Source: Timema cristinae | Taxonomy: Eukaryota > Arthropoda > Insecta > Phasmatodea > Timematidae | DNA length: 64,000 nucleotides | Assembly (NCBI GenBank): GCA_039000515.1 | Contig: JBCFYV010000100.1 | Coordinates: 57,155,160 to 57,219,159, forward strand | Direction: 5' to 3' | Part shown: in pieces, positions 4,055 through 63,295 of the stretch | How the letters are laid out: every line of letters begins with the position of its first letter | Numbering within the stretch: the first letter of the stretch is position 1 | Notes under the pieces: generated by a model | The model's database searches: none | What the model saw: only the letters and a program-made list of their open reading frames with translations | Told to the model about the DNA's origin: nothing | Made by a program: the position numbers and the translations under genes

Positions 4055-4194
4055 GCTGCCGCTATTTGCTGTCCCGTCAAACAAAACATACGTGTAACTC
4101 TCGCCAATCGACGGCTCACTATCTTATCTGCCACATAGCGGCGGTTTCTTAGTTGTTCGACGGGTTGCGATAACAGGGCCATGTCGGTGACTCG

Positions 4195-5186: not shown

Positions 5187-5399
5187 TCATGTACTCTTGT
5201 ATCTCCTCGTGACAGCTAACTTGCTCCTCACAAACTTCATCCCCATGTCCTCCACTTTCCTGGTCTCTCTTTCATTCAGAGTACATGTTTCTGCTACATG
5301 AGTGACAAAGGGTACAAAGTACACTCTGTACAACACTTCCTTACACTTCAAGGACAATTCTCTTCTCCACAGCAGGTCTCTTACACACCTATAGAACAA
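5187..5399 (-). mobile_element. LINE fragment, C-terminal part of reverse transcriptase
   Basis: An open frame of 70 codons reads RRELSLKCKEVLYRVYFVPF, AETCTLNERE and [19 protein letters not shown]. This is the 'K..LY...P...Y.AE.W.L...E.KF.R....TR' signature that follows the RT domain in non-LTR retrotransposons. It continues upstream directly into the 37-bp array, whose unit derives from the same frame. Confidence 0.75.
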
Positions 5400-6197: not shown

Positions 6198-6213
6198 CAC
6201 AGTAAGGTGTAAT

Positions 6214-13664: not shown

Positions 13665-13955
13665 CTGCAGTGAGCGCCACTACTTGCACCGGAAGTGACA
13701 TCACGTCCCCATCGAACCTGGCCATGACCTGCACGGTGTAGTTGGTTCTCCTGCGAAGTCCCGCGATCGTAAAGTTTCTGGCATCCCTGGAAAGGTCGCT
13801 GCTGCACGCCTGAATCGTGGGATCCACCCCCGCAACCCCCCAACACACCTGATAGCCCAGGGAACAAGGTAGCCCCGGGTACAATGGCACCCAAGAGACG
13901 GAGATGTTGTTCCTGGTCATATCAGCAACAGACACGGACTCCAGCATGGTGTCAT
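13665..13955 (-). CDS. FN3 exon n (type B)
   Basis: Encodes [38 protein letters not shown] and [13 protein letters not shown]. 291 bp, intact, phase 1-1. The acceptor CTGTGAATGTTCCAG is the last member of a tandem series of about ten acceptors (see the 91-bp array). Donor GCAGGTACTA. Confidence 0.85.
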
Positions 13956-22314: not shown

Positions 22315-25300
22315 TATATATATATACACACTATACACATTTACATATATTATAGTAGGATTTGAACTGTAACATATATAGGCTATCATTATATATATAA
22401 TGTCAATTATGATATATATGTAGCAGTCCAAACTCGATCCCAGGACAAACTAGACCGAACTACGCCGTATCAGTACATTCTGCCTGATGTAGGATAAACC
22501 GGTATAGCCTGATATTTTAAAGCAATACTAGTTTTCAACCTTCTTAGCCCATACGATGAGTTGACCTTGAATATGTTTTATCATGCACAGATTACGTGCA
22601 AATGTTTTTAGATAACCTAACCTAACCTAACCTAACTAAACCTGATCTAAATTAGTTGATCCTGAAATTTTGGCTTAGCTCATAGGCTAAATTAGTAGAG
22701 ACTATAATTTTATTAGGCCAAACCAGGTTTAGGCTAGGTTAGGCTAGCCAACAACATTTGCGCGCGATCTGTGCATGATAAAACATATCCAAGGTCAACT
22801 CATCGTATGGGCTAAGAAGGATGAAAACTAGTATTGCTTGAAAATATCAGGCTATACCGGCTTATCCTACATCAGGCAGGATGTATCAATTTGGCATAGT
22901 CTGATCTAGTTTGTTCTGAAATCGGATTTGACGGTAGCATAATACACTAGAGTTGCGATTATCCGACCTAAAGTGGCGGATTTCCGGGCCGTATAACGGA
23001 AAAGTTGGACAATATAAAATCTGAGTGTAAGTAATTTTCAGTATGGGTTTACCTCCTGTAGTTACATCTCCTTTGACACAGCTTTTATTTCCAGCCATAT
23101 CAAGACAGTGCTGCTATCTACACCGACCAATAGTACTGTATTGTACGCCAACAGCATGTATAGCAGTTATGCTTTGCTGTATCCAAAGTAAAGTTGTAAG
23201 GGGTTTGCAGTAGATTTTTTTTATTAATCACTAGTGGATATGTATTGGTTCGTTTATTTTAAAACGCACTTGTTAACAACGATAACTGAGCCGGATAATC
23301 AAAGGTTGTATAATCATGACTCTAATATATATATGAATAATTATCTAGGTCTATGACACATTAGATTGCCTTTAAAAATCTTGCGTGCCTGTAGTTATTT
23401 AATTTAAATTAGTAAGAATATTTTAATAAATTTGGAAAAGTTAATTTTCACTGCCAACCCTTTAATTCCGTGAACTAAAAAAACCCAGCGTTTTCTGTCA
23501 AACCTACCCTTTAAAAAGGTTTTCCTTTCTAATAAGTACTAGCAGGAGTACCCGGCGTTGCCTCGGTAGCCGACTGAAAAGTAATATCTTCTGATCCAGT
23601 TTTTAGTTAATTAATTTTTTTTATCAAAATCAAAACTCCGTCTTGTAGGTGTACATGTTCGTGAACAGACGCTACTAGTTTTTAAAATTCCAAATCTCTG
23701 TTGTGTGGTAGATATCACGCAATGCCCATGACCGAAAAAAAACTCTTCATTTTATTAATATAAGGTTTCTAAATATTTTAATGGATTTTTTTCTCGACGT
23801 TGTACCTCCATTAGTAGGACGTGATTTGAAGGTCATTACACACGTACCCTAAGGACAACCGGTGCTTGCACTAAACATAAGCCTATTTCTAATAGCAACT
23901 CACATAACGCAAGACTGCAGCCCACCTGTTCTTGTCGTCACGACGCTGTGGTTTACTGGCGAGAATACATGAAGTCCGACCGTGAGGACAGCGCTCACAT
24001 GGTACAAAGAGCATGGTGCGAGACCCTTGCGCTCCCAGCGGTCTCCAGGGGTACCAAGGACGCAATACTTGTCGGCGGTGGCGACTCTAGTGGTGCACAC
24101 GTCCAGGGTGTGGCCACATCTCAGAGAATCGTCAGAGATCTCCCAGTTCACGACGAAAAGATGAGCTGGTCACATCGCTGGTAGACAGGCTCCTCAAAGA
24201 CTCTGAGAAATTTTAGGTACATTAAGTGGGCGACAAAGAGAGGTAGCCTTCAGATTGTAAAATATATTGGCAGAAAGATTGAGGAGAAAGATAGTAGTAG
24301 AGAGGATCTAATGAGAAGAGGACAACAGGGAGAGTTGTTCAATAGGTGTGTAAGAGACCTGCTATGGAGAGTAGTGTTCTTATAGGTAAGTGTAAGAGAC
24401 CTGCTATGGAGAGTTGTTCTATAGGTGTGTAAGAGACCTGCTATGGAGAGTTGTTCAATGGTGTGTAAGAGACCTGCTATGGAGAGTTGTTCTATAGTGT
24501 GTAAGAGACCTGCTATGGAGAGTTGTTCTATAGGTGTGTAAGAGACCTGCTTATGAGAGAGTTGTTCTTAAGGTGGATAAGAGACCTGCCATGAGAGAGT
24601 TGTTCCATAGGTGTGTAAGAGACCTGCTATGGAGAGTTGTTCTATAGGTGTGTAAGAGACCTGCCATGGAGAGTTGTTCCATAGGTGTGTAAGAGACCTG
24701 CTATGGAGAGTTGTTCTATAGGTGTGTAAGAGACCTGCTATGGAGAGTTGTTCAATAGGTGTGTAAGAGACCTGCTATGGAGAGTTGTTCAATAGGTGTG
24801 TAAGAGACCTGCTATGGAGAGTTGTTCTATAGGTGTGTAAGAGACCTGCTATGGAGAGTTGTTCAATAGGTGTGTAAGAGACCTGCTATGGAGAGTTGTT
24901 CTATATGTGTGTAAGAGACCTGCTATGGAGAGTTGTTCTATAGGTGTGTAAGAGACCTGCTATGGAGAGTTGTTCTATAGGTGTGTAAGAGACCTGCCAT
25001 GGAGAGTTGTTCCATAGGTGTGTAAGAGACCTGCTATGGAGAGTTGTTCTATAGGTGTGTAAGAGACCTGCCATGGAGAGTTGTTCCATAGGTGTGTAAG
25101 AGACCTGCTATGGAGAGTTGTTCTATAGGTGTGTAAGAGACCTGCTATGGAGAGTTGTTCTATAGGTGTGTAAGAGACCTGCTATGGAGAGTTGTTCTAT
25201 AGGTGTGTAAGAGACCTGCCATGGAGAGTTGTTCCATAGGTGTGTAAGAGACCTGCTAAGGAGAAAAGAAGTGTCCTTGAAGTGTAAGGAAGTATAGTAC

Positions 25301-34064: not shown

Positions 34065-34164
34065 NNNNNNNNNNNNNNNNNNNNNNNNNNNNNNNNNNNN
34101 NNNNNNNNNNNNNNNNNNNNNNNNNNNNNNNNNNNNNNNNNNNNNNNNNNNNNNNNNNNNNNNN
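34065..34164. other. Assembly gap (100 N)
   Basis: N run between a SINE head and FN3 exon b. Confidence 0.99.
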
Positions 34165-34281
34165 GAGGAGTTCTCCAACATAGCCAGTACACCAGGTTGC
34201 AGTTGGTGTTGCTGGGACGGGCCCACTGCGCCAGCACGTAGTGCGTGTTCACGATACTGATCAGGTATTCCGTCACCGGAC
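34165..34281 (-). CDS. FN3 exon b, cut by gap, with five tandem acceptors
   Basis: Encodes GPVTEYLISIVNTHYVLAQW and ARPSNTNCNLVYWLCWRT. The innermost acceptor GTCGGCAG precedes 34281. Four equivalent acceptors follow at 34332, 34383, 34434 and 34485. The 51-bp spacing is in frame and open. Confidence 0.75.
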
Positions 34282-35890
34282 CTGCCGACATGCAACATAC
34301 AATGACACTGATCAGGTATTCCGTCACCGGACCTGCCGACATGCAACATACAATGACACTGATCAGGTATTCCGTCACCGGACCTGCCGACATGCAACAT
34401 ACAATGACACTGATCAGGTATTCCGTCACTGGACCTGCCGACATGCAACATACAATGACACTGATCAGGTATTCCGTCACCGGACCTGCCGACATGCAAC
34501 ATACAACGACACATCTTTACCCCAGTGGGAGAGGTTTTAGCACAATCAGGTAATATTTACGGGTCGTTTGGATCAGGTTGATCATTGGACGTTTAGCGTG
34601 CTTGTAAAACACCTGTGGATCTTACTGTGTGAGCTATAAATGGAATGAAACAAAGCACAGGGGGGTAGGTGTTGTTTGGACCTAGACACAGGAGCTGGAT
34701 GTTGTTTGGACCTATACACAGGATATGGATGTTGTTTGGACCTAGGCATAGAATCTGGATGTTGTTTGGACCTAGGCACATAAGCTGGATGTTGTTTGGA
34801 CCTAGGCACAGAATCTGGATGTTGTTTGGACCTAGGCACAGAATCTGGATGTTGTTTGGACCTAGACACAGGATATGGATGTTTTTTGGACCTAGACACA
34901 GAAGCTGGGTGTTCTTTGGACCTAGAAACAGGATATGCATGTTGTTTGGACCTAGGCACAGAAGCTGGATGTTGTTTGGACCTAGGCACAGGATATGGAT
35001 GTTGTTTGGACCTAGGCACAGAAGCTGGCCGCTGCATCAACTCACTTGCAAATCCAGCTGTCGTCACGTCGAGACTGACGGTCTCGGAATTGGCCGAGGT
35101 ACCCAGACTGGTGACGGTGAGGATGTAGGGGGTACAAGGCCACGTCCCGCTCACGGTGTGGTTCAGAGAGTCCCCTATCTCGCAGGTCCGCGCCTGGTCC
35201 AACAGGTTGGTCCAACAGTACTCGTACGAACCGACCTGACAACCTGAGGTCTCCTCGGGGGCGTCCCATGAGAACGTGAACAGAGTTGGTCCGACCTCGG
35301 AGAGAATGAGGTTGGTCACCGCGCCGGGAGCTGAACACAAGATATGCTCTGTTACTGACCTAGTATTGTACCAGGAGCTGAACACAAGATATGTTCCACT
35401 ACAGACCTAGTATTGTACCAGGAGCTGAACACAAGATATGTTCCACTACAGACCTAGTATTCTACCAGGAGCTGAACACAAGATTATGTTCCACTACAGA
35501 CCTAGTATTCTACCAGGAGCTGACACAAGATATGTTCCACTACAGACCTAGTATTCTACCAGGAGCTGATCACAAGATATGTTCCACTACAGACCTAGTA
35601 TTCTACCAGGAGCTGATATACACGTTTAGTTTAATATGAGAGGTTGAGAGGAAGTATAAGCTAATATAGAATAAAGAAATAATTCCAGAAAAGTCACAGA
35701 CTATTGTGTTTAAGCCGTGTGGCCTGACAGTGATATATAGTCTACGTTCTCGCTGACCAAGTTGGCTGCCTTAAGCAAAAATACATAATTATCATACATG
35801 AAGTATATATTTACCTGTGCAATTTATTTCTGCCTGTCCTCTGACAAGCACTGTCCATGTTAGTAGTAAAAGAAGTTTCACAAGAGACAT
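34165..35890 (-). CDS. FN3 gene copy 2: signal peptide, module a, partial module b
   Basis: Paralogue of the ten-module gene. Exons: signal peptide 35890-35815, module a 35330-35046, module b from 34281 into the gap at 34165. All junctions are phase 1, as in the large gene. Module a resembles module c and module b resembles d (NTNCNLVYWLCW against [12 protein letters not shown]), so the order signal-a-b matches signal-c-d. No further exon is visible between 34 kb and the next gene start at 30.5 kb. The remainder is either in the gap, lost, or the gene is truncated. Both acceptors (a and b) sit in tandem arrays. Confidence 0.72.
34250..34510. repeat. 51-bp array of exon b acceptors, five copies
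   Basis: Unit ACACTGATCAGGTATTCCGT plus CACCGGACCTGCCGACATGC plus AACATACAATG. On the minus strand each unit holds a pyrimidine-poor acceptor and the first 30 bases of the FN3 exon. The translated unit is GPVTEYLISVIVCCMSA. Confidence 0.95.
34660..35030. repeat. 30-bp minisatellite, about 12 copies, after exon a
   Basis: Unit GGATGTTGTTTGGACCTAGG plus CACAGAATCT with variants. Period 30 leaves long open frames on both strands (MLFGPRHRIW; VPRSKQHPDS). These are artefacts: the exon a donor lies just to the right at 35045. Confidence 0.93.
35046..35330 (-). CDS. FN3 exon a
   Basis: 285 bp, phase 1-1: APGAVTNLILSEVGPTLFTF, CQVGSYEYCWTNLLDQ and PCTPYILTVTSLGTSANSE. Acceptor TCTTGTGTTCAG, donor GCAAGTGAGT. 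Intact. Confidence 0.85.
35331..35625. repeat. 47-bp array carrying the acceptor of exon a
   Basis: About six copies of GAGCTGAACACAAGATATGT plus TCCACTACAGACCTAGTATT plus CTACCAG. Read on the minus strand each contains TCTTGTGTTCAG followed by CTCCTGG, which is the exon a acceptor and its first exon bases (CTCCCGG). Confidence 0.93.
35815..35890 (-). CDS. Signal-peptide exon of FN3 gene copy 2
   Basis: ATG at 35890-35888. MSLVKLLLLLTWTVLVRGQA then EINCT and a split codon. Donor ACAGGTAAAT in phase 1. Resembles the 30.4 kb signal exon in position, phase and the terminal C-T-G. Confidence 0.83.
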
Positions 35891-42688: not shown

Positions 42689-42753
42689 TTATCTGATAAA
42701 ACTAAGGAGGATGGCGGAGATCATGACGTAGCCTGCGATGACTTGGGCGGCCC
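42689..42753 (-). CDS. Last exon, hydrophobic C-terminal (GPI-like) signal
   Basis: Strong acceptor GTGTGTTTGTTCCAG, 21 codons with stop TAA at 42689-42691. Phase 1 matches the FN3 exon. Confidence 0.7.
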
Positions 42754-43958
42754 CTGGAACAAACACACAACCGTTAGAACGTGCGATCTCTCGGAACACT
42801 TCACTGGAGGGGGAGGAACGGTGCGTTTGCTTTAGGTCGAATCCGAACATAGATTTGTCTTACGAGTACTAAATATTTTTAAAAAATATATGAAAATCGA
42901 GGAACTAGAAAAATAATAAATAGTCACTAACTTATATGTAAACATTTTTGTATTTGAAATACATCCATTATAAGATTCGTACATTCAGTTGAGAGATAAA
43001 TTAAAGGTTTGGAGTCCGTTTGTTGAGTAAAGGGGAAGGAATTCAGTCGTGTGTGATAAGGAAAGAAACAAGATGAGAAGGAATTCAGTCGTGTATGATA
43101 AGGAAAGAAACAAGATGAGAAGGAACTCAGTGTGTGTGATAAGGAAAGAAACAAGATGAGAAGGAACTCAGTCGTGTGTGATAAGGAAAGAAACAAGATG
43201 AGAAGGAACTCAGTCGTGTGTGATAAGGAAAAAACAAAGATGAGAAGGAATTCAGCTAGTATGATCAGGAAATAAATAAAATGAGAAGGAATTCAGCTAG
43301 TATGATCAGGAAAGAAACAAAATGAGAAGGAATTCAGCTAGTATGATCAGGAAAGAAATAAAACGAGAAGGAATTCAGCTAGTATGATCAGGAAAGAAAC
43401 AAAATGAGAAGGAATTCAGCTAGTATGATCAGGAAAGAAATAAAACGAGAAGGAATTCAGCTACGTGTACTCAGAAAATAAAACCAAATTAGAAGGAATT
43501 CCATCATAGATACTCAGTAAAGAAACAAAGGGGAAGGAAATCAGTCATTTATGATAAATAAATTAACAGAGACAATAGATGGGCATTAAGGTAGTACAAA
43601 GTGTGCAGGTGAGTGACGTAATATAAAACAAATGAGTGGTAATAGACTAATAATATTGGGATGAGCTTGTGACCTGCTGTGGTGCCCACTAAGGAAAACG
43701 GTTGCGACACTTGATTCCCTTCGAACAACGCCATGACCTGAAGGTCGTAGCTTGTGCCACTCTGCAGTCCTGTGACCGTGAACTCGGTAACATCCCTGGA
43801 CACATCGGTCCTACACGTGGGGCTGGTCACACCTGTGACCCCCCAGCACACTTGGTACCCTAGGGCACAGGGCGACCCGGGGTACACTGGTACCCACGAA
43901 ATAGAGAGCTCACTTGTGTTCACGTTGACCACTTGTGCTGACGTGATCATGGTGTTAT
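42689..43958 (-). CDS. FN3 gene copy 3, 3' end: B-type module plus GPI-like tail
   Basis: Two exons. Module j (43958-43674, 285 bp, intact) is nearly identical to exon i of the large gene and keeps both cysteines (CALGYQVCW). The last exon (42753-42689) follows in phase 1 and reads GAAQVIAGYVMISAILLSFI, Arg, stop. A small-residue stretch, then about 15 hydrophobic residues and an immediate end is the pattern of a GPI-attachment signal; a single-pass anchor with almost no cytoplasmic tail is the alternative. Upstream exons are not found between 44 and 48 kb (a gap lies at 45352). The C-terminal exon suggests how the large FN3 gene ends too. Confidence 0.72.
43020..43560. repeat. 41-bp minisatellite, about 13 copies, after exon j
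   Basis: Unit GAGAAGGAATTCAGCTAGTA plus TGATCAGGAAAGAAACAAAA with two subtypes (CAGTCGTGTGTGATAAGG). Expanded version of the short repeat at 21325-21450 beside paralogous exon i. Confidence 0.92.
43674..43958 (-). CDS. FN3 exon j (type B, intact)
   Basis: [56 protein letters not shown]. Acceptor TTCTGTTCCAG, donor GCAGGTCACA. Serves as the intact reference for exon i. Confidence 0.85.
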
Positions 43959-48699: not shown

Positions 48700-48790
48700 G
48701 TAGATTAGCTGTCGAAACTCTTGTTTTGTTTTCAATATGGTGGACTAACTATCGAAACTCTTGTTTTGTTTCCAAGATGGTGGACGGACA
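48700..48790 (+). promoter_or_regulatory. Duplicated start-codon region with a 3-codon upstream ORF
   Basis: The segment CGAAACTCTTGTTTTGTTT with TATGGTGGAC or GATGGTGGAC occurs twice in tandem. The first copy gives ATG GTG GAC TAA (48737-48748), a minimal upstream frame. The second copy gives the true start ATG GTG GAC GGA at 48777. If transcription starts upstream, the small ORF should lower initiation at the real start. Confidence 0.6.
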
Positions 48791-48985
48791 ATCACCTCAA
48801 GAGCAGTTTCTGGCCCACCAGAGGTTCGGGGCGGTGGACTACTCAGTGTTCGCCGGCATGATGCTCGTCAGCGCTTCAATAGGAGTTTACTTTGGCTTTT
48901 GTCGAGGGAAGATGACCAAATCCGAGTACTTAGTAGGAGGGAGGAACATGAGAACATTACCAGTGGCCATGTCATTGGTTGTCAG
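48777..48985 (+). CDS. SLC5 exon 1
   Basis: [20 protein letters not shown] to [11 protein letters not shown]. The start is chosen because residues upstream of this Met are not family-like and the next residues lead into TM1. The donor GTCAGGTGAGG is the first of about nine tandem donors. Confidence 0.92.
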
Positions 48986-50176
48986 GTGAGGAACATGGGA
49001 ACATTACCAGTGGCCATGTCATTGGTTGTCAGGTGAGGAACATGAGAACATTACCAGTGGTCATGTCATTGGTTGTCAGGTGAGGAACATGGGAACATTA
49101 CCAGTGGCCATGTCATTGGTTGTCAGGTGAGGAACATGAGAACATTACCAGTGGTCATGTCATTGGTTGTCAGGTGAGGAACATGGGAACATTACCAGTG
49201 GCCATGTCATTGGTTGTCAGGTGAGGAACATGGGAACATTACCAGTGGCCATGTCATTGGTTGTCAGGTGAGGAACATGGGAACATTACCAGTGGCCATG
49301 TCATTGGTTGTCAGGTGAGGAACATGAGAACATTACCAGTGGTCATGTCATTGGTTGTCAGGTGAGGAACATGGGAACATTACCAGTGGCCACGTTCCTG
49401 GTCCTCGGTGTTAACAAGTGCGTTTTAAAATAAACAAACCTGTAAATATCCAACATTTACTGAATTTATAATGTGATCCAGTTGACGGTCTGTTTTCACT
49501 TGTTCTTGCTTTGTAGTCGATGTTTCAGTTCCAAAATAAAGTATTGTATAGCTAAGATTTAAAAAATATATTTCTAGTTTAATTTTCACTGTTCCCTTAC
49601 AATTTTTACATCGCACGGCAGATTCTATTTAAACAACATTAAATGGTTTGTGAAAATTAACAAAAAGTGGGCAGATACACTCGGATTCGGTATTATCCGG
49701 TTTTCCCGTTTTCTGGCCCGCAATGCGGCCACTTTAGACCGGATAATCGCGACTCTAGAATACATAATGTTTCATGAGGAGGAGGTGAGAGGGAGGGCGT
49801 CAAAAAAGGCAATCATGACTCCCCTGATGCACGAGGGATAGAAAACACTATTAGTTTTTAGAAGCAGTTTGGTAATTGTATGGTAGTTAAAGGTAATTTG
49901 CATGTATTTGACAGTTACGTGTCCGGTATTTCCTACATCGGAAAACCCACCGAGGTCTACCTGTATGGGGTGAACAGCATCTACACTATCCTAACATACC
50001 TGATTGCTGGTATAATTGCAAGAACTCTCTTCTTACCTGTTTTTCACGATCTACAAGTCACTTCTATCTACGAGGTAAGTAACATACCTGAATGTTAATA
50101 TAAATACGAGTACTCTCTTCCTAAATCCTCTTCGACTCTAGAGATCTACTTTATAATGAATGTATGTGTATGTAAG

Positions 50177-50207
<31 letters not shown>

Positions 50208-51244
50208 GTATGTATGTAAGTATGTATGTATGTATTGTATGTATTGTATGTATTGTACTTATCGTACTTATCCCGAAGGTTGGTCGGATCCTCAACAGAT
50301 CCACCGACAGCTGTAAGACCTGAAGAGGCGTACTAGGGAAATGAGGGGTGAGGTAGTTTCCCCACTGAGCCAGAAGGTACTCTTGCACATCACAAGTGAC
50401 ACCTTCACAGGGACTGGCTGTATATTGAATGTTATTACTAGTATTAACTGATACAAGTGACACCTTCACTCCATTTATTAGTATCGTTCATTAAATATTA
50501 TATTAGAGCTGAACGTTAGCGCGGTTATTTCCCGCTTAATAAAGCGGCCCCCTTAACCTACTAGGTGTGCTTGAGCTAATCGGGTTTTACCCCTTGTTCC
50601 AGTACCTGGATAGAAGATTCAATAAAAGTGTCAGTGTGATGGCCTGTTTAATGTACATCATCCTTAACGTGAGTAAATACTACTGCTTTCTACTTACCAC
50701 CGGTAAAACACGGGGGACAAACAACAACCAAGTAAAACATTTCTGTTGATTGTTGTTAGCTCAATGGTTGTCTTGTTTGTTTAAACCATAAGACAAGATT
50801 AGAAAGTATACTCTAAATTGAAAAATTACATTTGGACTCGGGTAATCGAACCCGGGACCTTTAGCTCAGTACGAAAATGCTCCTAACACTGAGCTATCTG
50901 GGAGTCGTCCGGTGTCCAGCTTTTGTTTTTCAAGTCAAGGAATATGATATTTATATGCGGCTATAAAACCGTGATTGGATAGATGACCTGGCGGTCTAAG
51001 GGGTAATGTGTCGGACTTCTGTGCTGGGAGTCCGGGGTTCAATCCTCGGTCCCGGTACAGATTTATCTGATTTCCAAACCCTTCCTTCACCTCTGACAAG
51101 ACATCTTGTGAATGTGGGGAATGCCAGGCCTCCACCGTGGTTCGGATCCCACGTTAAACTGTAGGTCCTCCATTTCATCTCGCAATCACCCTACCATTAC
51201 ACATTAGCGTGTGTTCAACCTGAACGGGTAGTAAGACGCGGTGC

Positions 51245-51277
<33 letters not shown>

Positions 51278-54200
51278 CAATAACAACTTGGCTATTTAAT
51301 CCTCATAATAATATAAGGGTTAAACATAGCTAAATATATATAATTAAATAGTTTATTAGCATACTCATAAACGGTCTTTTGTTTGCCAGATCACTTGGAT
51401 GCCAGTGGTTTTGTACGTACCAGCTCTGACGTTCAATCAAGGTACTTTCAGTGTTTTGTCGTGTAGTGAAGTGTTGCCAGGGTAAGCAGAGCTTGTTAAA
51501 ACTGTACCTGTGATATGTTCTCCCCCACTCTGTCCCCATTTGACCAATCATACATAGACTCTGCTCTAAACATCTCACATGGGAATATATGTTGGTTGAT
51601 ACCTGACCAATGAGTGTTCTACTGAGTGATGAGAACATATCACAGACCCCCACCTCGGTGGCGTAGTTAACTAACACGCTAGTTTCGTGTTGAACTCAAC
51701 TGCCGAGAGCGGGAAGATCTAGGTTCGAATCTCAGTCGGATGAACTGGGGGTTGTTTTTCCTAAATGGCTTCCCACTCTCCCTCCACGCAAATGTGGGTT
51801 CACTTCGTCTGAATTCCAACTTCCCAGTTCCTAAGCCATTAGCGTAATAAGTACTTAAGGTGTAACCCGAACAGGTAGACGAGGTGCTAAATAATAATAA
51901 AATGCACAGGGAGAGTTTAATCTCTGCAACAATCCATGACACGCCAATGTTTCAGTGATAGCATATAATGTACATGTATGTTTTTGGTTCAACTTATGTG
52001 TTTTTATTTGACTGAATCTCTCTCATATGCAGAGTAAATGTCTATAATAATTTTCCCTAGTTATATTAGGATTGTGGTAGGAAGAACAGTTTAGAATACA
52101 AACTGATGGATTTTACCACACGAATAAACTAATATTTCCTAAGTTTTGTTCAATAGGACATTGTGCATGAATAAACCAAGTGCCAGAAAGTAATATTTCT
52201 AAGTTTTGTTCAATAGGACATTGTGCATGAATAAACCAAGTGCCAGAAAGTAATATTTCTAAGTTTTGTTCAATAGGACATTGTGCATGAATAAACCAAG
52301 TGCCAGAAAGTAATATTTCTAAGTTTTGTTCAATAGGACATTGTGCATGAATAAACCAAGTGCCAGAAAGTAATATTTCTAAGTTTTGTTCAATAGGACA
52401 TTGTGCATGAATAAACCAAGTGCCAGAAAGTAACATTTCTAAGTTTTGTTCAATAGGACATTGTGCATGAATAAACCAAGTGCCAGAAAGTAATATTTCT
52501 AAGTTTTGTTCAATAGGACATTGTGCATGAATAAACCAAGTGCCAGAAAGTAATATTTCTAAGTTTTGTTCAATAGGACATTGTGCATGAATAAACCAAG
52601 TGCCAGAAAGTAATATTTCTAAAATTGTGTTAATATTGTAACTGCTTAGTTTCAGGTATGAATATCAACTATATAGCTCCTATTGTCATCGCCGTGTGTA
52701 TTTTCTACACATGTGTGGTGAGTATATGCACGTATGTGACCCAATATATTTTTTATCTATGAGTACTATAATGAGCCATGCAGGTCCTTGAAAACTTAGT
52801 CATTTGAATAGTTATGAAATTGACTTTGAAGATTGAATTCAAAATAAGAATATGTGAATAGTTTTTTATTTTTACAAATATATAATTTTAGGGTAGTTAA
52901 CAAATAATTAAACTTGAATTTTGTTAAATATATTTGAACAATTTGGTTTAAAATGTTTATATAAAGAGTGTTTATTGTGATCAACAAAATGATTTTGTTT
53001 GTTTTTATAAGTAAAACATACTTGAGGGTAGTTTACTTAAAAACTTTGTTTGAAAATTATCTTCGAATCCATAATACACAATATGGGAATGTTTGTTCGA
53101 TTGTGTCGTAACATTTATTATCACCTTAAATACGTGATCGTGGACACTTTTATTTACCTAATTTAATAAATAATCATCACCACTCACTTAAGTGGCCGCA
53201 TGGTCTAAGGCGTCACTCTTGCAGTAGACGAAACTGCCGATGACGGGGAAATCGAGGTTCGAGTGTTTTTTTTTCCAAAGCGGTTTGCTATTCTCCCTCC
53301 ACGCAAATGCGGGTACACGTATTAATATAAACTTAGTCATCTCTAAAACCATTATTGTAATTAGTACATAAGCGTATAGCCCGAACGGGTAGTAAGACGC
53401 GGTGATAATAAAAAACTGTTGATATTACCGCGTGTAGGTAACTAAACAACCCTATCTACTGAAAAAATATTTGATATATTTTGGATCTAAGAAATATAAA
53501 TATACGAACCTTGAAAAACAAGTGTCAAAAATAACAAATTGAGTTAAAAGAGGGGGAGGGGAACTCAAACCATAAAACGTTAATTTTATTTAATGAAAAA
53601 AAAAAAACCTTACAAAATATTGTTCAAATAAAGAGGAATATAAAAATAGAGTTGATGTTAAATTGACGTAAGGATTTTCTTTCCTGGTATTTTGTTATTT
53701 TTCTTGCCGCCAGGGTGGTATGAAGGCGGTGGTGTGGACTGACGTCATCCAGACATGCGCCATGATCCTTCCTATAATCCTGGTGATTTTCAAAGGAACG
53801 GCACAGATCGGGGGATTCGCTGAATTGTGGGAGATAAATCGCAAAGGAGAGCGTCTGCAATTACCGAGGCTAGTCTTGCTTCAATTACATCACCGGTAGT
53901 CGACAGTCAGATCTACTTTCAAACCACGTGATCTGCAAGACCATTATGTTGAGCCATCAAAACTTTAGCTAAAAAAAATTGTTTTGTTTCTTTTAACCTT
54001 TTTAAAAATCATTATTGAAATACTAAATTATAAAAATAACAGTTTGGATGGTATTTTTTTTATTATGGTGGCTTCTGTTGTTTACTAAAAATGATTTACA
54101 AACAAGAGCTTCTAAAAGGCTGTATTCACTTCATAAATAAATATGGCTAACCAGACGATATGAAGGTGGTTGATGACGTCAATACAACCCGTATTCGTGT

Positions 54201-57200
54201 GTTTGTGTTATAAAATAAAAAAAACTTTTCATTTTTAAAATCAGGCCTCCGCCGTGGTTCGGATCTCACGTTAAACTGTAGGTCCTTCATTTCATCTCAC
54301 AATCACCCTACCATTACACATTAGCGTAAGTGCGTACAACCCGAACGGGTAGTAAGACGCGGTGATAATAATATTTTGAAACTAATATGTTGAATAACTT
54401 TTTCTTTGATTTATGAAAAAAACACTTAATTACGTTAAAGATTATGGTAGCCAGTTATAACTAAATACAATTATGAATATAATAATTTTTATCTTATTAT
54501 TTCATGCTCTATAATAGCTCTTGTTGCCATAACCGTGAAACAAACAAAAATAATAGTTTTTATTAATATTTTAGGTTCGTTCAATTCATCATAAAATACC
54601 AAATGAACCATACAATAATTCTTAAGGAAGTATTTATGGAATATTTTGATAAATGTTGATAAACTATATAGTTTTACAAATGAAATATAAATAACTTTCT
54701 TCACGGGTTGACAATAGTGACCTTAAATCAACAATTGCTATCAAAGATAGTTTTTAGATGCTGGCTATTAGTAAGGAAATGAAACATGCTTGTTTTTTGG
54801 TCCAAATATAGTTTTTATATCATAATAATGTGTTTTGTACAACTTTCAGCGCAAGTCTCGACTTTATTGATCGATATAATATATGGGGAATACTACTAGG
54901 GAAACATAATATACAACACGCTATATAGTTGTTGCAACCAATTTAGCATGCAGAGATACTCATGTCTACCCAACATCGAGGCGGCCAACAGGTGAGAATA
55001 GTGTTATACATCTTGTAGACTTAGATACATTGAGACAGGTGTTATAACATCTTGTAGACTTAGAAACAGACAGGTGTTATAACATCTTGTAGACTTAGAA
55101 ACAGACTGGTGTTATAACATCTTGTAGACTTAGAGACAGACTGGTGTTATAACATCTTGTAGACTTAGAAACAGACAGGTGTTATAACATCTTGTAGACT
55201 TAGAAACAGACAGGTGTTATAACATCTTGTAGACTTAGAAACAGACTGGTGTTATAACATCTTGTAGACTTAGAAACAGACTGGTGTTATAACATCTTGT
55301 AGACTTAGAGACAGTGAGACAGGTGTTATAACATCTTGTAGACTTAGAGACAGACTGGTGTTATAACATCTTGTAGACTTAGAAACAGACTGGTGTTATA
55401 ACATCTTGTAGACTTAGAGACAGTGAGACTGGTGTTATAACATCTTGTAGACTTAGAAACAGACAGGTGTTATAACATCTTGTAGACTTAGAAACAGACA
55501 GGTGTTATAACATCTTGTAGACTTAGAAACAGACTGGTGTTATAACATCTTGTAGACTTAGAGACAGTGAGACAGGTGTTATAACATCTTGTAGACTTAG
55601 AGACAGTGAGACTGGTGTTATAACATCTTGTAGACTTAGAAACAGACAGGTGTTATAACATCTTGTAGACTTAGAAACAGACTGGTGTTATAACATCTTG
55701 TAGACTTAGATACATTGAGACAGGTGTTATAACATCTTGTAGACTTAGAGACAGACAGGTGTTATAACATCTTGTAGACTTAGAAACAGACTGGTGTTAT
55801 ATCATCTTGTAGACTTAGATACATTGAGACAGGTGTTATAACATCTTGTAGACTTAGAGACAGACTGGTGTTATTACATCTTGTAGACTTAGAAACAGAC
55901 AGGTGTTATAACATCTTGTAGACTTAGAAACAGACTGGTGTTATAACATCTTGTAGACTTAGAGACAGTGAGACTGGTGTTATAACATCTTGTAGACTTA
56001 GAAACAGACTGGTGTTATAACATCTTGTAGACTTAGATACATTGAGACAGGTGTTATAACATCTTGTAGACTTAGAGACAGACTGGTGTTATTACATCTT
56101 GTAGACTTAGAAACAGACAGGTGTTATAACATCTTGTAGACTTAGAAACAGACTGGTGTTATAACATCTTGTAGACTTAGAGACAGTGAGACTGGTGTTA
56201 TAACATCTTGTAGACTTAGAAACAGACTGGTGTTATAACATCTTGTAGACTTAGAGACAGTGAGACAGGTGTTATAACATCTTGTAGACTTAGAGACAGT
56301 GAGACTGGTGTTATAACATCTTGTAGACTTAGAAACAGACTGGTGTTATAACATCTTGTAGACTTAGATACATTGAGACAGGTGTTATAACATCTTGTAG
56401 ACTTAGAGACAGACTGGTGTTATTACATCTTGTAGACTTAGAAACAGACAGGTGTTATAACATCTTGTAGACTTAGAAACAGACTGGTGTTATAACATCT
56501 TGTAGACTTAGATACATTGAGACAGGTGTTATAACATCTTGTAGACTTAGAGACAGACAGGTGTTATAACATCTTGTAGACTTAGAAACAGACAGGTGTT
56601 ATAACATCTTGTAGACTTAGAGACAGTGAGACTGGTGTTATAACATCTTGTAGACTTAGAGACAGTGAGACAGGTGTTATAACATCTTGTAGACTTAGAG
56701 ACAGACTGGTGTTATAACATCTTGTAGACTTAGAAACAGACAGGTGTTATAACATCTTGTAGACTTAGAAACAGACTGGTGTTATAACATCTTGTAGACT
56801 TAGAAACAGACAGGTGTTATAACATCTTGTAGACTTAGAGACAGTGAGACAGGTGTTATAACATCTTGTAGACTTAGAAACAGACTGGTGTTATAACATC
56901 TTGTAGACTTAGAGACAGTGAGACAGGTGTTATAACATCTTGTAGACTTAGAAACAGACTGGTGTTATAACATCTTGTAGACTTAGAAACAGACTGGTGT
57001 TATAACATCTTGTAGACTTAGAGACAGTGAGACAGGTGTTATAACATCTTGTAGACTTAGAGACAGACTGGTGTTATAACATCTTGTAGACTTAGAAACA
57101 GACAGGTGTTATAACATCTTGTAGACTTAGAGACAGACTGGTGTTATAACATCTTGTAGACTTAGAAACAGACAGGTGTTATAACATCTTGTAGACTTAG

Positions 57201-60200
57201 AAACAGACTGGTGTTATAACATCTTGTAGACTTAGAGACAGTGAGACTGGTGTTATAACATCTTGTAGACTTAGAAACAGACTGGTGTTATAACATCTTG
57301 TAGACTTAGAGACATTGAGACTGGTGTTATAACATCTTTTAGACTTAGAGACAGACTGGTGTTATAACATCTTGTAGACTTAGAGACAGTGAGACTGGTG
57401 TTATAACATCTTGTAGACTTAGAAACAGTGAGACTGGTGTTATAACATCTTGTAGACTTAGAGACAGCAGTCTCAAATGTAAGCTCAGAAGATCTATTAG
57501 AACATTTCACCGACACGACTGATAATATTTTTAATAACTAAATTACAGGGCGTTGTGGATGTACATGTTTGGACTCTCCATCTTCTTTGCCCTGAGCTGT
57601 TACTGTGGTCTTCTTGTCTACGCCACGTATCACGACTGCGATCCTATATCAACACAGGTATGAACCTGGTACAGTCGGGACTACCTATATCCACACAGGT
57701 ATGAACCTGGTACAGTCGGGACTACCTATATCCACACAGGTATGAACCTGGTACAGTCGGGACTACCTATATCCACACAGGTATGAACCTGGTACAGTCG
57801 GGACTACCTATATCCACACAGGTATGAACCTGGTACAGTCGGGACTACCTATATCCACACAGGTATGAACCTGGTACAGTCGGGACTACCTATATCCACA
57901 CAGGTATGAACCTGGTACAGTCGGGACTACCTATATCAACACAGGTATGAACCTGGTACAGTCGGGACTACCTATATCCACACAGGTATGAACCTGGTAC
58001 AGTCGGGACTACCTATATCCACACAGGTATGAACCTGGTACAGTCGGGACTACCTATATCAACACAGGTATGAACCTGGTACAGTCGGGACTACCTATAT
58101 CCACACAGGTATGAACCTGGTACAGTCGGGACTACCTATATCCACACAGGTATGAACCTGGTACAGTCGGGACTACCTATATCCACACAGGTATGAACCT
58201 GGTACAGTCAGGACTACCTATATCCACACAGTGGTACAGTCGGGATTACAATTAAAGGGAGGAAAAGTTTCTAAACTAAATGTAAAGATGGGGGCCTTAG
58301 AATCTTAGAATCGCTAATCATACTCGATATTTGAGTATTATTAAAAATTATTTTTTGAGATTCGAAAATAGAAATTAAAAAAAAATTGGTGTATTTTAAA
58401 AATAAAATTGAATCAAATTAGTTTATAACTTCACTAGAGCGTTGATAATTCGCAATAATTGGGGAACGATCCAATATGGATATTTGAAAATACGGTACCT
58501 ACATTCATTAAAATTATAAACTAAGCATAGAAGGGATATTTAGGTAAACTCAGTGTTAATGTAGAAACATTTTCACTTTATTTAGACAACGAACTTACAA
58601 ACAAACAAAAATTTGTTGCTAAATATCACAAATTTGGAAAGAATATAATAAGGCAAAAAAAAAGCCTCCTTTTTTTTAAACAAGCCGGGTTGAGAAGCGT
58701 TTTTTTCTTTTTTGGCAGCCATCTCTCTGGTATTGATACCACTGTGGTTATTTTTATAAACAATTTTTTTTTATGATTCGTATTTTCAACGTCCGAACTA
58801 TCAACGCTCTACTGGATTTTAATTTGAAAATTGTAATGTTAAATGTTATAAATATAGTTCAAGTTATAGGGTGACCTGGTGGACTAGGGGTAAGGTGTCA
58901 GACTTCTGTGCTGGCGGCCGGGGTTCAATCCTCGGTCCCGGCACAGATTTATCTGATTACCAAACCCTTCCTTCACCTCTGACAAGACGTGTATTAATAA
59001 CAACTTGTGGATGTGTGGAATGCCAGGCCTCCACCGTGGTTCGGATTCCACGTTAAACTGTAGGGCCTTCATTTCATCTCACAATCACCCTTCCATTACA
59101 CATTAGCGTAAGTGCGTATAACCCGAACGGGAAGTAAGACACAATAATAATAGTTCAAGTTTAAAAAAAATCTTAATATTTTGATAAATTTTCGTCAGCC
59201 TTTTTCACTAGCCAAAGAGTAGTGTTGATATCTAGCAAATTTTAGTGTTTTTTCTTTTTTCTAATTTTTACTACCAGCTGTGCACACCAAAAAGTATATT
59301 ATTACTATCGCGTCTTACTACCCGTTCGTATCATACGCACTTACGCTAATGTGTAATGGTAGGGTGATTGTGAGATGAAATGGAGGACCTACAGTTTAAC
59401 GTGGGATCCGAACCACGGTGGAGGCCTGGCATTCCACACATTCACAAGTTGTGATTAATACACATCTTGTCAGAGGTGAAGGAAGGGTTTGGTAATCAGA
59501 TAAATCTGTGCCGGGACCGAGGATTGAACCCCGGATCCTCAGAACAGAAGTCCGACACGTAATATATACTCGATTACATCATCCCATCATAGCTTTGTTT
59601 TAGTGCAATTTCAATGAAAAGTCCACCATTATTAATATGTGTTAAACCTTTTAAATTATTGTCATAATTTCAATGATTGTATCATATTTGTTTTTATAAG
59701 ATATCATAACCTGTAATTAGTATTACCAATCTTTTCAAATATGAATCATATATTATTATTGCACTTTTTTTAACCCTCTTGTCTTAACTATTTTTTTGGG
59801 TATTTCACATATTTATTAATTACGCTAGTATGTTAGGGATTAGTAAGGTTGATTTTAGACGAACTGTACCTGCATTTGCATGAAGTAATAGTGGTAAACC
59901 ATTTTAGGGGGAACCCATCCTCAATACACCTGAACACATATCTCCCCTTCATCGGCAGTCTAGTTTTTCCAAGAGTGACGCCGTAAACCACGCGACCACC
60001 GAATCGAGTCGATTATAAAGTTGATATTTTAGATTTTATAACGGTTTCTATTCGTAACATTTGTATTATAATCTTGTTATCTTGGGTAACTTTGTCAATC
60101 CTAGCAGTTTAACATTTTACACACAAGATGTTAGTAGTTTTAATTCCCTGTTCCATCTCACTTTTAATATTCTGACTTGAAGTAAAGATTGCTGACCCTA

Positions 60201-63167
60201 TTATCCGTGGTCCCTAGACATTCTCTTTACGTCCACAGAGTCCGTATCCTCAATCACGTGACCACGCCAACCAGTGATATAAAAGTTATTGTCCCAGAAA
60301 ATGTGTGTCTTATGACTTACCCCATTTTTCCCTTGTACCCTTTGAGCTATGTCTATGTATATGTTGAATGCTGTATTTGTGCGTAACTGGTGTCCGTCCG
60401 GTTGATAGAACTACCGGATATCCAGTTGTCCGGATACCGGGGGGTTTATTTTTAATTCAGGTGGGTAAAAGCGCTCTTGTTTGATAGTTTTTGACGTACT
60501 GTTTTACCTGCTCAGGTGGTGACGGCCAAAGACCAGGTGTTCCCTCTTTTGGTGACACGAGTTTTCCAAGGAATCGACGGCCTGCCTGGAATATTCATAG
60601 CTGGAGTTTTCAGTTCCTCCCTAAGGTACATTCAGCTGCAATTTACGTATCAACACGTCACATTAGGTCTAGTAGCTTTTAGGTAAGACTCTTACTATAA
60701 AAATGGGACTGTAGTAGCTTTTATATCAATCAGATAAGGCTTTTTATATGAAAATTGGACTGTAGTATCTTTTATATCCATCAGATAAGGCTTTTCTTAT
60801 GAAAATTAGACCGTAGTAGCTTTTATAACCATCAACTAAGGTTTTTTTCTATTAAAATTGGACTGTGTATTAGCTTTTATAACCATCAGATAAGGTTTTT
60901 TACTATGAAAATTAGACCTTAGTAGCTTTTATAACCATTAACTAATGTTTTTTCTGTTAAAATTGGACTGTATTAGCTTTTACAACTATCAGCTAAGGTT
61001 TTTTCTATGAAAATTGGACTGTAGTAGCTTTTATAGCCGTCAGATAAGGTTTTTCCTATGAAAATTGGACTGTAGTAGCTTTTATAGCCGTCAGATAAGG
61101 TTTTTCCTATGAAAATTGGACTGTAGTAGCTTTTATTATTACCTAATGTTTTTTTTCTATTAAAATTGAACTGTAGTAACTTGTATCAGTTCAGTTTGTT
61201 CTATTAAAATTGGACTGTAGTAGCTTTTATAACCATCAGCTAAGGCTTTTTCTATGAAAATTGGGCTGTAGTATCTTTTATATCTGTCAGATAAGGGGCC
61301 ATCCTTAAAATATGTAAGGGTCTGGGGGTTAGTAGGGGAAGTATTTTCTTATGTTCTATTATGAGGGTGAGCGGGTTTCAGAATCCATCTTACGTTGGCT
61401 TAAGGTTTTATTTTATCAATGTTTCTGGTAAAATAAAATCTAAAATATATATTTTTTTGTCAGAAATAAATATATTAATATATGATGTTTAACTTATAAT
61501 ATTTCATTCACTAATTTATATGAACCGCAACTAAAGTATTCTTAAATTTTATATCACTCTTTTTATAAAAGATCCCTAAGTATAAAAATAAACAAACGAT
61601 TTAATATGAGACACTTTACCAAGTCGTAAGAAATTACGTAAAATAGGAAAGGGGGAAGGGGGGGGGGTTACGGAGGGTACGGAAAATCTTAAGTTACCTT
61701 TTACGACGGATGAACTTTGGGGGGGAGGGGGGGTCAGAAAGCATGAAAGAAAAGCCTTACATAATTTAATTTCCACCCCTAAGGTTCTCTATGAACCTTT
61801 TTTATTTAGCACCGAGTCTTACTACCCGTTCGAGTTATACGCTATTGTACTAATTATGCTAATAATTTTAAGTATTAGGAAGGCTTTATTTAGAGGAAGT
61901 GTACCCGCATTTTCATGGAGGAAGATTGTAAAATCATACTCGTTGAACTCTCCTGTGAGTACGTTGTCCACGAGTACGAAATGTTGATATCTCCTGTCAG
62001 TACGTTGTCCACGAGTGTGAAATGTTGATCTCTCCTGTCAGTACGTTGTCCTCGAGTGTGAAATGTTGATCTCTCCTGTCAGTACGTTGTCCACGAGTGT
62101 GAAATGTTGATCTCTCCTGTCAGTACGTTGTCCACGAGTGTGAAATGTTGATCTCTCCTGTCAGTACGTTGTCCACGAGTGTGGAATGTTGACATCCCCT
62201 GTCAGCACGTTGTCCTCGAGTGTGAAATGTTGATCTCTCCTGTCAACACGCTGTCCACGAGTATGAAATGTTGATATCTCCTGTCAGTACGTTGTCCACG
62301 AGTGTGAAATGTTGATCTCTCCTGTGAGTACGTTGTCCACGAGTGTGAAATGTTGATATTTCCTGTCAGTACGTTGTCCACGAGTGTGAAATGTTGATCT
62401 CTCCTGTCAGTACGTTGTCCACGAGTGTGAAATGTTGATCTCCCCTGTCAGCACGTTGTCCTCGAGTGTGAAATGTTGATCTCCCCTGTCAGCACGTTGT
62501 CCTCGAGTGTGAAATGTTGATCTCTCCTGTCAGTACGTTGTCTACGAGTGTGAAATGTTGATCTCCCTGTCAGCACGTTGTCCTCGAGTGTGAAATGTTG
62601 ATCTCCCCTGTCAGCACGTTGTCCTCGAGTGTGAAATGTTGATCTCTCCTGTCAGTACGTTGTCCACGAGTGTGAAATGTTGATCTCCCCTGTCAGCACG
62701 TTGTCCTCGAGTGTGAAATGTTGATCTCCCCTGTCAGCACGTTGTCCTCGAGTGTGAAATGTTGATCTCTCCTGTCAGTACGTTGTCCACGAGTGTGAAA
62801 TGTTGATCTCCCCTGTCAGCACGTTGTCCTCGAGTGTGAAATGTTGATCTCTCCTGTCAGTACGTTGTCCACGAGTGTGAAATGTTGATCTCCCCTGTCA
62901 GCACGTTGTCCTCGAGTGTGAAATGTTGATCTCCCCTGTCAGCACGTTGTCCTCGAGTGTGAAATGTTGATCTCTCCTGTCAGCACGTTGTCCACGACTA
63001 TGAACGCGATGTCTGCGGTGATCCTGGAGGACCTGTACCGACCTTGGATGAGGAGACCCATGACACAAAGGCACGAGAACCTGGTCCTCAAGTCCGCCGT
63101 TATTATCCAGGGGATGCTCTATTTCGCCCTGTTCTTTGTCGTCCAGAAACTCGGTACCATAGTGCAG
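48777..63167 (+). CDS. Sodium/solute symporter, SLC5 family (SMCT/SMVT-like), 10 exons, 3' end beyond window
   Basis: Plasma-membrane Na+-coupled transporter of the SLC5 group (monocarboxylate or multivitamin branch). Exons: 48777-48985, 49915-50074, 50603-50668, 51390-51441, 52656-52717, 53714-53895, 54850-54991, 57549-57657, 60516-60625, 62984-63167; phases join without gaps except inside exon 7. Family blocks: [20 protein letters not shown] (TM1), [108 protein letters not shown] (Na+-site helix) and [15 protein letters not shown]. About 425 residues are visible of roughly 600; the last helices and tail are off the right edge. Substrate cannot be told from this. Five splice junctions lie in tandem arrays. 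Exon 7 has a frame defect. Confidence 0.93.
48946..49395. repeat. 47-bp array carrying the exon 1 donor, about 9 copies
   Basis: Unit GTGAGGAACATGGGAACATT plus ACCAGTGGCCATGTCATTGG plus TTGTCAG. The last part is the end of exon 1 and the first bases are the donor, so each unit repeats TTGTCAG-GTGAGG. Period exactly 47. Confidence 0.95.
49655..49762 (-). mobile_element. Tigger/pogo-like end fragment
   Basis: The minus strand starts TAGAGTCGCGATTATCCGG and continues TCTAAAGTGGCCGCATTGCG, like the element end at 22.95 kb. Confidence 0.45.
49915..50074 (+). CDS. SLC5 exon 2
   Basis: [53 protein letters not shown]. Acceptor GTATTTGACAG (phase 2 in), donor GAGGTAAGT (phase 0 out). Confidence 0.92.
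50155..50275. repeat. (ATGT)n microsatellite
   Basis: TATG/TGTA tetranucleotide tract in intron 2. Confidence 0.95.
50603..50668 (+). CDS. SLC5 exon 3
   Basis: 22 codons: [20 protein letters not shown] then LN. Acceptor CCCCTTGTTCCAG, donor AACGTGAGT. Confidence 0.9.
50824..50912 (-). mobile_element. SINE family D (tRNA-like head)
   Basis: Minus strand AGATAGCTCAGTGTTAGGAG (A box) and CCGGGTTCGATTACCCG (B box arm). Same family as 9795-9892. Confidence 0.5.
50984..51274 (+). mobile_element. SINE family V, full length
   Basis: TGACCTGGCGGTCTAAGGGG head to CAACCTGAACGGGTAGTAAG and (TAA)n. Confidence 0.94.
51390..51441 (+). CDS. SLC5 exon 4
   Basis: [17 protein letters not shown] and one base. 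Acceptor TTTTGTTTGCCAG. Donor AAGGTACTTT; a MITE begins within about 6 bp of it. Confidence 0.9.
51447..51648. mobile_element. MITE family M, right end cut by SINE C
   Basis: Left end TTTTGTCGTGTAGTGAAGTG and TTGCCAGGGTAAGCAGAGC, interior GACCAATCATACATAG. The right inverted repeat is absent where SINE C is inserted. Confidence 0.65.
51649..51901 (+). mobile_element. SINE family C
   Basis: ACCTCGGTGGCGTAGTTAAC head, AGGTTCGAATCTCAGTCGG B-box region, tail TGTAACCCGAACAGGTAGA and AATAATAATAAA. Confidence 0.9.
52135..52622. repeat. 60-bp minisatellite, about 8 copies, before exon 5
   Basis: Unit AAGTTTTGTTCAATAGGACA plus TTGTGCATGAATAAACCAAG plus TGCCAGAAAGTAATATTTCT, nearly identical copies. 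It ends about 35 bp from the exon 5 acceptor. The acceptor itself is not repeated. Confidence 0.97.
52656..52717 (+). CDS. SLC5 exon 5
   Basis: [20 protein letters not shown] then V, a membrane helix. Acceptor CTTAGTTTCAG, donor GTGGTGAGT. Confidence 0.9.
53183..53412 (+). mobile_element. SINE family R
   Basis: GTGGCCGCATGGTCTAAGGC head, tail GTATAGCCCGAACGGGTAGT. A deletion follows the B box. Confidence 0.85.
53714..53895 (+). CDS. SLC5 exon 6
   Basis: [51 protein letters not shown]. Acceptor TTGCCGCCAG is clear. The donor CACCGGTAGTC is the only one giving phase 2 as exon 7 needs, but the last dozen residues are not family-like, so this end is tentative. Confidence 0.8.
54242..54372 (+). 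mobile_element. SINE family V, 3' half only
   Basis: From AGGCCTCCGCCGTGGTTCGG to the tail GACGCGGTGATAATAAT. Confidence 0.88.
54850..54991 (+). CDS. SLC5 exon 7, frame defect
   Basis: Starts in phase as [16 protein letters not shown] and ends as [20 protein letters not shown] then CLPNIEAAN in another frame. The length of 142 cannot satisfy both flanking phases; two bases appear to be missing near CTACTAGGGAAAC. Acceptor CAACTTTCAG, donor AACAGGTGAGA. Confidence 0.78.
54992..57473. repeat. 35/39-bp array after the exon 7 donor, about 65 copies
   Basis: Units GTGTTATAACATCTTGTAGA plus CTTAGAAACAGACTG (35) and a longer form with GAGACAGTGAGACTG (39). The longer form repeats the donor context (AACAGGTGAGAATAGTGTTA at the exon against ACAGTGAGACTGGTGTTATA in the array). 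About 2.5 kb, filling nearly the whole intron. Confidence 0.97.
57549..57657 (+). CDS. SLC5 exon 8
   Basis: [20 protein letters not shown] then [16 protein letters not shown]. Acceptor AACTAAATTACAG, donor CACAGGTATGA, the first of a tandem series. Confidence 0.92.
57641..58240. repeat. 41-bp array carrying the exon 8 donor, about 14 copies
   Basis: Unit GTATGAACCTGGTACAGTCG plus GGACTACCTATATCCACACA plus G. Each repeat ends like exon 8 (CCTATATCAACACAG) and is followed by the donor GTATGA. Confidence 0.97.
58870..59150 (+). mobile_element. SINE family V, subfamily with internal insertion
   Basis: Full copy with target duplication ATAGTTCAAGTT. It carries an extra stretch (GTGTATTAATAACAACTTGT) in the body, shared only with the copy at 59297. 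Confidence 0.93.
59297..59560 (-). mobile_element. SINE family V, same subfamily, head truncated
   Basis: Contains the complementary insertion ACAAGTTGTGATTAATACAC. Lies about 150 bp from its sister, inverted. Confidence 0.9.
59815..60002 (-). mobile_element. SINE family R, partial
   Basis: Body TTTGCATGAAGTAATAGTGG and head complement ACGCGACCACCGAATCG. Confidence 0.7.
60516..60625 (+). CDS. SLC5 exon 9
   Basis: [20 protein letters not shown] then [16 protein letters not shown]. Acceptor ACCTGCTCAG, donor CTAAGGTACA (phase 2). Confidence 0.92.
60665..61295. repeat. About 51-bp degenerate array, 12 copies
   Basis: Unit ATTGGACTGTAGTAGCTTTT plus ATAACCATCAGATAAGGTTT plus TTCTATGAAA with many variants. 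It begins about 40 bp after the exon 9 donor; the donor is not repeated. Confidence 0.9.
61803..61936 (-). mobile_element. SINE family R, tail and body part
   Basis: GAGTCTTACTACCCGTTCGA tail complement, CCGCATTTTCATGGAGG body. The head is lost at the array. Confidence 0.75.
61940..62983. repeat. 41-bp array carrying the exon 10 acceptor, about 25 copies
   Basis: Unit TGATCTCTCCTGTCAGTACG plus TTGTCCACGAGTGTGAAATG plus T. Each unit holds the acceptor CTCCTGTCAG and the first exon bases (CACGTTGTCCACGA), identical to the true exon 10 start. Confidence 0.97.
62984..63167 (+). CDS. SLC5 exon 10
   Basis: [60 protein letters not shown]. The acceptor is the last of the tandem series, the donor GTGCAGGTACA the first of another. 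Phase 2 in, phase 0 out. Confidence 0.92.
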
Positions 63168-63295
63168 GTACAGTCACAGTCTTATAGTGCAGGTACAGTC
63201 ACAGTCTTATTGTGCAGGTACAGTCACAGTCTTATAGTGCAGGTACAGTCACAGTCTTATTGTGCAGGTACAGTCACAGTCTTATAGTGCAGGTA
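63158..63295. repeat. 25-bp array carrying the exon 10 donor, 5 copies
   Basis: Unit GTACAGTCACAGTCTTATAG plus TGCAG. Each repeat gives AGTGCAG-GTACAG, the exon 10 end and donor. Confidence 0.95.

Follow-up and report, generated by a model that had tools for sequence, protein, structure and literature searches.

Minisatellite arrays spanning exon–intron boundaries in a 64-kb region of the stick insect Timema cristinae

Minisatellite-like duplications of intron–exon boundaries, termed 'mirages', have been described in amphioxus, with Adh3, the globin genes BflGb6 and BflGb9, troponin C and PGBD5 given as examples (PMC3087553, PMC3902484). Units of 10–72 bp are reported for Adh3 and of about 150–160 bp for the globin genes, and AG/GT is present in many of them. 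The accounts describe length instability, which at Adh3 is somatic, and the Adh3 data together with RT-PCR of the globin genes suggested regular splicing (PMC3087553, PMC3902484). Work on the potato RdRp gene indicates that a tandem duplication that crosses an intron–exon boundary can also create an intron (PMC4974935).

The region considered here, termed the window, is the whole stretch of 64,000 bp of Timema cristinae DNA that was analysed. Two genes in it carry arrays that lie across splice junctions, and a third gene was named by eye:

1625–4092, minus strand: gene of esterase or neuroligin type whose N-terminal stretch is acidic (named by eye)
about 13.7–44 kb, minus strand: FN3 exon cluster (Pfam fn3 and Timema protein matches)
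48777–63167, plus strand: SLC5 (SMCT1/SLC5A8-like) gene of 10 exons (reading frames and homology)
48777–48985, 49915–50074, 50603–50668, 51390–51441, 52656–52717, plus strand: SLC5 exons 1–5
53714–53868 (GC donor), 54850–54991, 57549–57657, 60516–60625, 62984–63167, plus strand: SLC5 exons 6–10

Homology and reading frame together fixed a list of 50 splice junctions, which leaves out an extra exon at about 42692–42754. The joined SLC5 exons, submitted minus the first part of exon 7, match the solved SMCT1 structure (PDB 7sl9) in two stretches with an E value of 1.4e-73. Among the 120 of 526 protein matches listed, identity to the joined exons is 40–48%, and those that are named come from insects and include insect SMCT1 proteins. 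No orthologue labelled Timema was present among these 120, nor among the 12 of a second search, most entries being without an organism name. The donor of exon 6 is a GC site (GAG|GCTAGT). Exon 7 (54850–54991) has one one-base frameshift, which is probably an assembly error.

In the FN3 cluster, Pfam fn3 passed in five of nine submitted reading frames, and the others were assigned through Timema matches; six of the seven protein matches to the joined exons are Timema fibronectin-type proteins. Over 96 residues, exon o (43674–43958) is identical to a protein of T. monikensis, which makes that species the nearest of the Timema compared. For exons a and b, the identity with T. californicum and T. 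douglasi is about 95%. Frameshifts seem to affect exons e, f, h and i as well. A near-duplicate exon (16576–16830 and 17306–17542, one copy being rich in indels) flanks a gap of 100 N, and the pair has the look of an artefact, from haplotypes or from a misjoin. At 34065–34281, the exons due after exon l in a T. tahoe model match the window at 50–57% only, and the FN3 gene seems to be cut off at the gap. An Rfam scan of the whole window gave zero matches.

Tandem Repeats Finder (TRF) returned 56 rows for the window. Rows with 2–7 bp periods were dropped, as were seven weak rows of 10–32 bp (starting at 771, 10070, 10304, 10373, 22297, 25605 and 36940, none on a listed junction), and the merging of overlapping rows left 23 minisatellite arrays. 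These total 12,214 bp, or 19% of the window. In Medauroidea, another stick insect, tandem repeats are put at 2.6% of the assembly, and the window is thus far richer. Seven of the 23 arrays span a splice junction; their units are 25–91 bp long and 4–45 exon bases lie inside them:

48941–49392, plus strand: 47-bp array over the donor of SLC5 exon 1 (48985|48986), the first unit having 45 exon bases and distal copies 1–8 retaining GTGAGG
57643–58231, plus strand: 41-bp array over the donor of SLC5 exon 8 (57657|57658), 15 exon bases
61942–63004, plus strand: 41-bp array over the acceptor of SLC5 exon 10 (62983|62984), 21 exon bases, 23 copies of CAG[TC]ACG
63159–63295, plus strand: 25-bp array over the donor of SLC5 exon 10 (63167|63168), 9 exon bases
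13938–14907, minus strand: 91-bp array over the acceptor of FN3 exon a, whose edge is at 13955; 18 bases are exonic
34256–34512, minus strand: 51-bp array over the acceptor of an FN3 exon whose edge is at 34281; 26 bases are exonic
35327–35616, minus strand: 47-bp array over the acceptor of an FN3 exon whose edge is at 35330; 4 bases are exonic

Several non-spanning arrays lie close to junctions:

28207–28603, minus strand: 65-bp array, 16 bp upstream of an FN3 acceptor
34670–35028, minus strand: 30-bp array, 17 bp beyond the donor of FN3 exon m
52126–52622, plus strand: 60-bp array, 33 bp upstream of the acceptor of SLC5 exon 5
55001–57467, plus strand: 35/39-bp array starting 9 bp into SLC5 intron 7, about 70 copies of 35 bp, no exon sequence
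60695–61296, plus strand: 51-bp array, 69 bp beyond the donor of SLC5 exon 9

TRF bears out the presence and unit lengths of the arrays given in a preliminary description of this DNA. That description placed five SLC5 junctions inside arrays, and four of them are there (the donors of exons 1, 8 and 10 and the acceptor of exon 10). The fifth, the donor of exon 7 (54991), is 9 bp outside the intron 7 array, in which the donor-like sequences ACAGGTG and ACTGGTG occur 29 and 38 times. All three FN3 acceptors that it counted do lie in arrays, by TRF and homology-set junctions. The non-spanning arrays have their nearest junction at 9, 16, 17, 33, 69, 113, 126, 172 and 200 bp, with seven more at 570–2605 bp. 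In the SLC5 gene, none of the seven arrays is more than 70 bp from the end of an intron.

Two other pairs of arrays should be mentioned. A 37-bp minisatellite is found twice, in inverted orientation (5364–6201 and 24329–25264), and each copy is wholly inside a dispersed repeat. Arrays of 41 bp are situated beyond the donors of the paralogous FN3 exons h and o (21343–21437, about 2 copies, and 43035–43501, about 11 copies); their units are alike by eye, a likeness that BLAST at E 1e-3 does not find.

Whether the arrays are in excess at junctions depends on what is counted. Judged on coverage, junctions are not over-represented: arrays make up 19% of the window and hold 7 of the 50 junctions (14%). 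Arrays expand where they arise, however, and cannot run through a coding exon, so that the founding unit is the event to randomise. When each array was collapsed to one unit (which leaves 52,823 bp) and units were placed at random 50,000 times, a mean of 0.96 spanned a junction versus the 7 observed (P = 0.00004). With dispersed repeats removed the mean is 1.25 (P = 0.00016), and with the two look-alike pairs each counted once it is 0.89, none of the 50,000 placements reaching 7. The local excess claimed in the preliminary description is thus upheld at the level of founding units. The two genes show it separately. In the SLC5 body four of seven arrays span a junction versus 0.59 expected (P = 0.0014), and in the FN3 stretch three of eight do so versus 0.53 (P = 0.012). 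When dispersed repeats are left aside, the expectations are 0.78 for SLC5 (P = 0.0039) and 0.74 for FN3 (P = 0.030). Arrays also crowd near junctions: 10, 12 and 16 units, the seven spanning ones included, are within 20, 70 and 200 bp, versus 1.56, 2.74 and 5.42 expected. It should be pointed out that this is a single window chosen for its odd look, and the P values are therefore optimistic for the genome.

At E 1e-3, no spanning unit has a match in the window beyond the array to which it belongs, and the only cross-match between array units window-wide is that of the 37-bp pair (5364 and 24329), which are non-junction arrays. The spanning units are thus unrelated within the window, which supports the view, already taken in the preliminary description, that the spanning arrays arose as independent events. 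Introners or another spreading repeat were considered and rejected, given that the spanning units match neither one another nor other sites in the window.

The direction of change can be read at some of the junctions. Exon bases in the arrays at SLC5 exon 1, exon 8 and the exon 10 acceptor encode residues that align with SMCT1, and therefore the junction sequence predates the array at these three sites. The acceptor of FN3 exon a shares the motif TTCCAG|AT with three paralogues, and only exon a has the array. Intron gain by tandem duplication, to which the preliminary description had linked the arrays, was rejected on these grounds: the arrays extend one end of pre-existing introns, the coding sequence is conserved and the three paralogous FN3 acceptors are array-free. 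Three of the spanning arrays have an internal divergence of 1–2%, with unit variants in mixed order; in the array that starts at 61942, one unit seems to bear an indel that shifts the remainder.

Use of the extra splice sites was modelled in silico for the donors of SLC5 exons 1 and 8 and the acceptor of exon 10. For exon 1, all nine downstream positions tried (eight of them GT) lead to an in-frame stop, which for any of copies 1–8 falls at residue 71, and the exon's own site leads to none. For exon 8 the same holds for 14 of 14 downstream positions (13 of them GT), again with no stop from the exon's own site; ACAG|GTATGA is intact in copies 1–13. At the exon 10 acceptor, 22 of the 23 CAG[TC]ACG copies bring an in-frame stop, and the last one alone leaves the frame open. 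Since inner copies bring stops, the cell must select the site at the exon edge, unless the other products are degraded or mended. At CAG|GT donors each added copy makes a GT…AG block, and if a distal donor were used, a second splice could in principle take out the retained block. In three of the four acceptor arrays no GT follows the AG, so that such a property is not required, and the idea of a second splice is inapplicable to these three.

The explanation that we regard as reasonably probable is that the arrays are minisatellites of the mirage type, i.e. exon-edge duplications that later expanded and that survive where splicing removes the extra copies. A segment of 25–91 bp that crosses an existing exon–intron border would be duplicated in tandem, and would then multiply into the intron via slippage or unequal exchange. 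The splice site at the exon's own edge, i.e. the first donor or the last acceptor, would give the normal mRNA, and the extra copies would leave with the intron. Because the outermost splice site would still yield a normal mRNA, an array may be tolerated at little cost. More of the duplications may arise at exons or close to them than elsewhere. A duplication within an exon would break the frame and be lost, and survivors would therefore cluster at the borders. As the arrays crowd near exons too, seeding near exons and subsequent survival can explain the pattern without a splice-directed process. The G+C content is 47% in spanning units, 40% in other units and 38% in the window, which is a trend only toward G+C-rich seeding. 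An array resembling the 30-bp one, in gene models of two other Timema species, also agrees with this reading.

The plain coverage figure counts against mirage-type expansion, and so does the lack of early stages. Ongoing seeding would predict some two-copy stages, and a search for two-copy or weak tandem duplications at the other junctions found 0 of 42, versus 54 of 3000 random noncoding positions (about 0.8 expected). Junctions appear to have a full array or nothing, in a sample that is too small to call depletion.

A process directed by splicing, such as a nick, an R-loop or a polymerase stall at CAG|GT, would make the junctions true hotspots and not places of survival. Seven arrays are at distance 0 from a junction, and each of the three donor arrays that span a junction sits on CAG|GT, the sequence at 10 of the 26 donors overall (P = 0.046). 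The association weakens for AG|GT donors generally, which number 14 of 26 (P = 0.14). AGGT, read on either strand, is in six of the seven spanning consensus units, and in the 16 non-spanning TRF consensus units it occurs in 7 versus 4.8 expected (P = 0.17). CAGGT occurs in 3 of these 16 versus 0.76 expected (P = 0.030), a signal that is gone when look-alike pairs are counted once: of the resulting 14 units, 5 have AGGT (P = 0.38) and 1 has CAGGT (P = 0.50). Evidence for either sequence as a general seeding motif is thus mixed. The excess of near, non-spanning arrays and the lack of GT after the AG in three of four acceptor arrays also speak against a splice-directed process, which is considered unlikely. 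Chance, acting on a high minisatellite load in a window that was picked by a reader for its look, is doubtful to a greater degree: the plain coverage figure agrees with it, but the founding-unit excess, present in each gene apart, does not.

Selection for splicing control, whereby competing sites would tune inclusion or yield nonsense transcripts, is suggested by the intact splice sites in the copies of exons 1 and 8, all of them GT, and by gene models of other Timema species that read through an array beside a donor. The T. tahoe (P0124) and T. douglasi (P0125) models have translated copies that resemble the 30-bp array beside the donor of FN3 exon m; their frames differ, as do, by eye, their copy numbers, in what are predicted models and a near-junction array. 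Also by eye, both models repeat the 'DDxM' start of an FN3 exon along with the upstream intron end, as a spanning array would. A second T. douglasi model (P0121) extends upstream of acceptor a into sequence that matches the array unit of the window. Tandem peptide repeats were absent from P0121, P0122, P0123 and P0126 when these models were scanned. The T. californicum model (P0123) has FN3 exons fused with an SLC5-type protein unlike that of the window; this suggests, at the level of a gene model, that FN3 and SLC5 genes adjoin in T. californicum too. The T. tahoe and T. douglasi models are predictions and not transcripts, however, the low divergence of three spanning arrays explains intact copies without selection, and the arrays show no relation in unit length, in sequence or in the junction affected. 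Selection for splicing control is thus very improbable. Little weight indeed, the least of all, is given to an assembly artefact in which error-prone reads or misjoins inflated short duplications. The indel-type frameshifts in several exons and the near-duplicate exon beside the gap are what it would produce, but unit variants are in mixed order within arrays, and the models of two other Timema species have an array resembling the 30-bp one. The copy numbers of the arrays could still be wrong.

A wider proposal can be put forward, i.e. that junction duplications recur throughout the Timema genome and are a main route of intron lengthening, with CAG|GT arrays tolerated via a GT…AG second splice. 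As a whole this is a speculative and unlikely extension, though worth stating.

The arrays described here are a real and dense insect instance of a known but little-studied kind of array. In the literature searched, which covered few subscription papers, no report was found of arrays across splice boundaries in Timema or any other insect. The 'mirages' described in lancelets would occur in a distant animal lineage as well. Intron growth is rarely caught happening, and the Timema arrays together with congeneric genomes could make it testable. In such species one might measure the rate of duplication at exon edges, whether arrays feed intron growth, and how splicing selects the correct copy among 5–26 similar sites.

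Comparison with known systems points to both shared and distinct properties. The human IFI6 (6-16) gene is said to have a minisatellite with multiple splice donors, with a unit of about 12 bp and repeat donors that are reportedly used, in an account placed in NAR in 1995. As in Timema, the minisatellite units supply splice donors, but there only one gene is involved. The Rogers model, i.e. duplication of an AGGT segment, and the potato RdRp case share with the Timema arrays a duplication that crosses a splice boundary and copies that supply GT and AG; in contrast, the Timema arrays lengthen existing introns and make no new one. Introners resemble them in being recurrent events at introns, but are described as one element copied into many genes (PMC9860276), whereas the Timema units are unrelated within the window.

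The closest likeness is to the amphioxus mirages. For these, data on splicing and instability exist. The Timema arrays differ in being found in an insect, with seven in 64 kb, several of them in a single gene, and up to 26 copies. As in amphioxus, there are arrays, here seven of the 23, that span an exon–intron boundary and include exon and intron bases, the units are short, 5′ or 3′ splice sites are involved, and AGGT is present in all but one of the spanning units. Judged by their sequence organization, the Timema arrays have the structure by which mirages are recognized.
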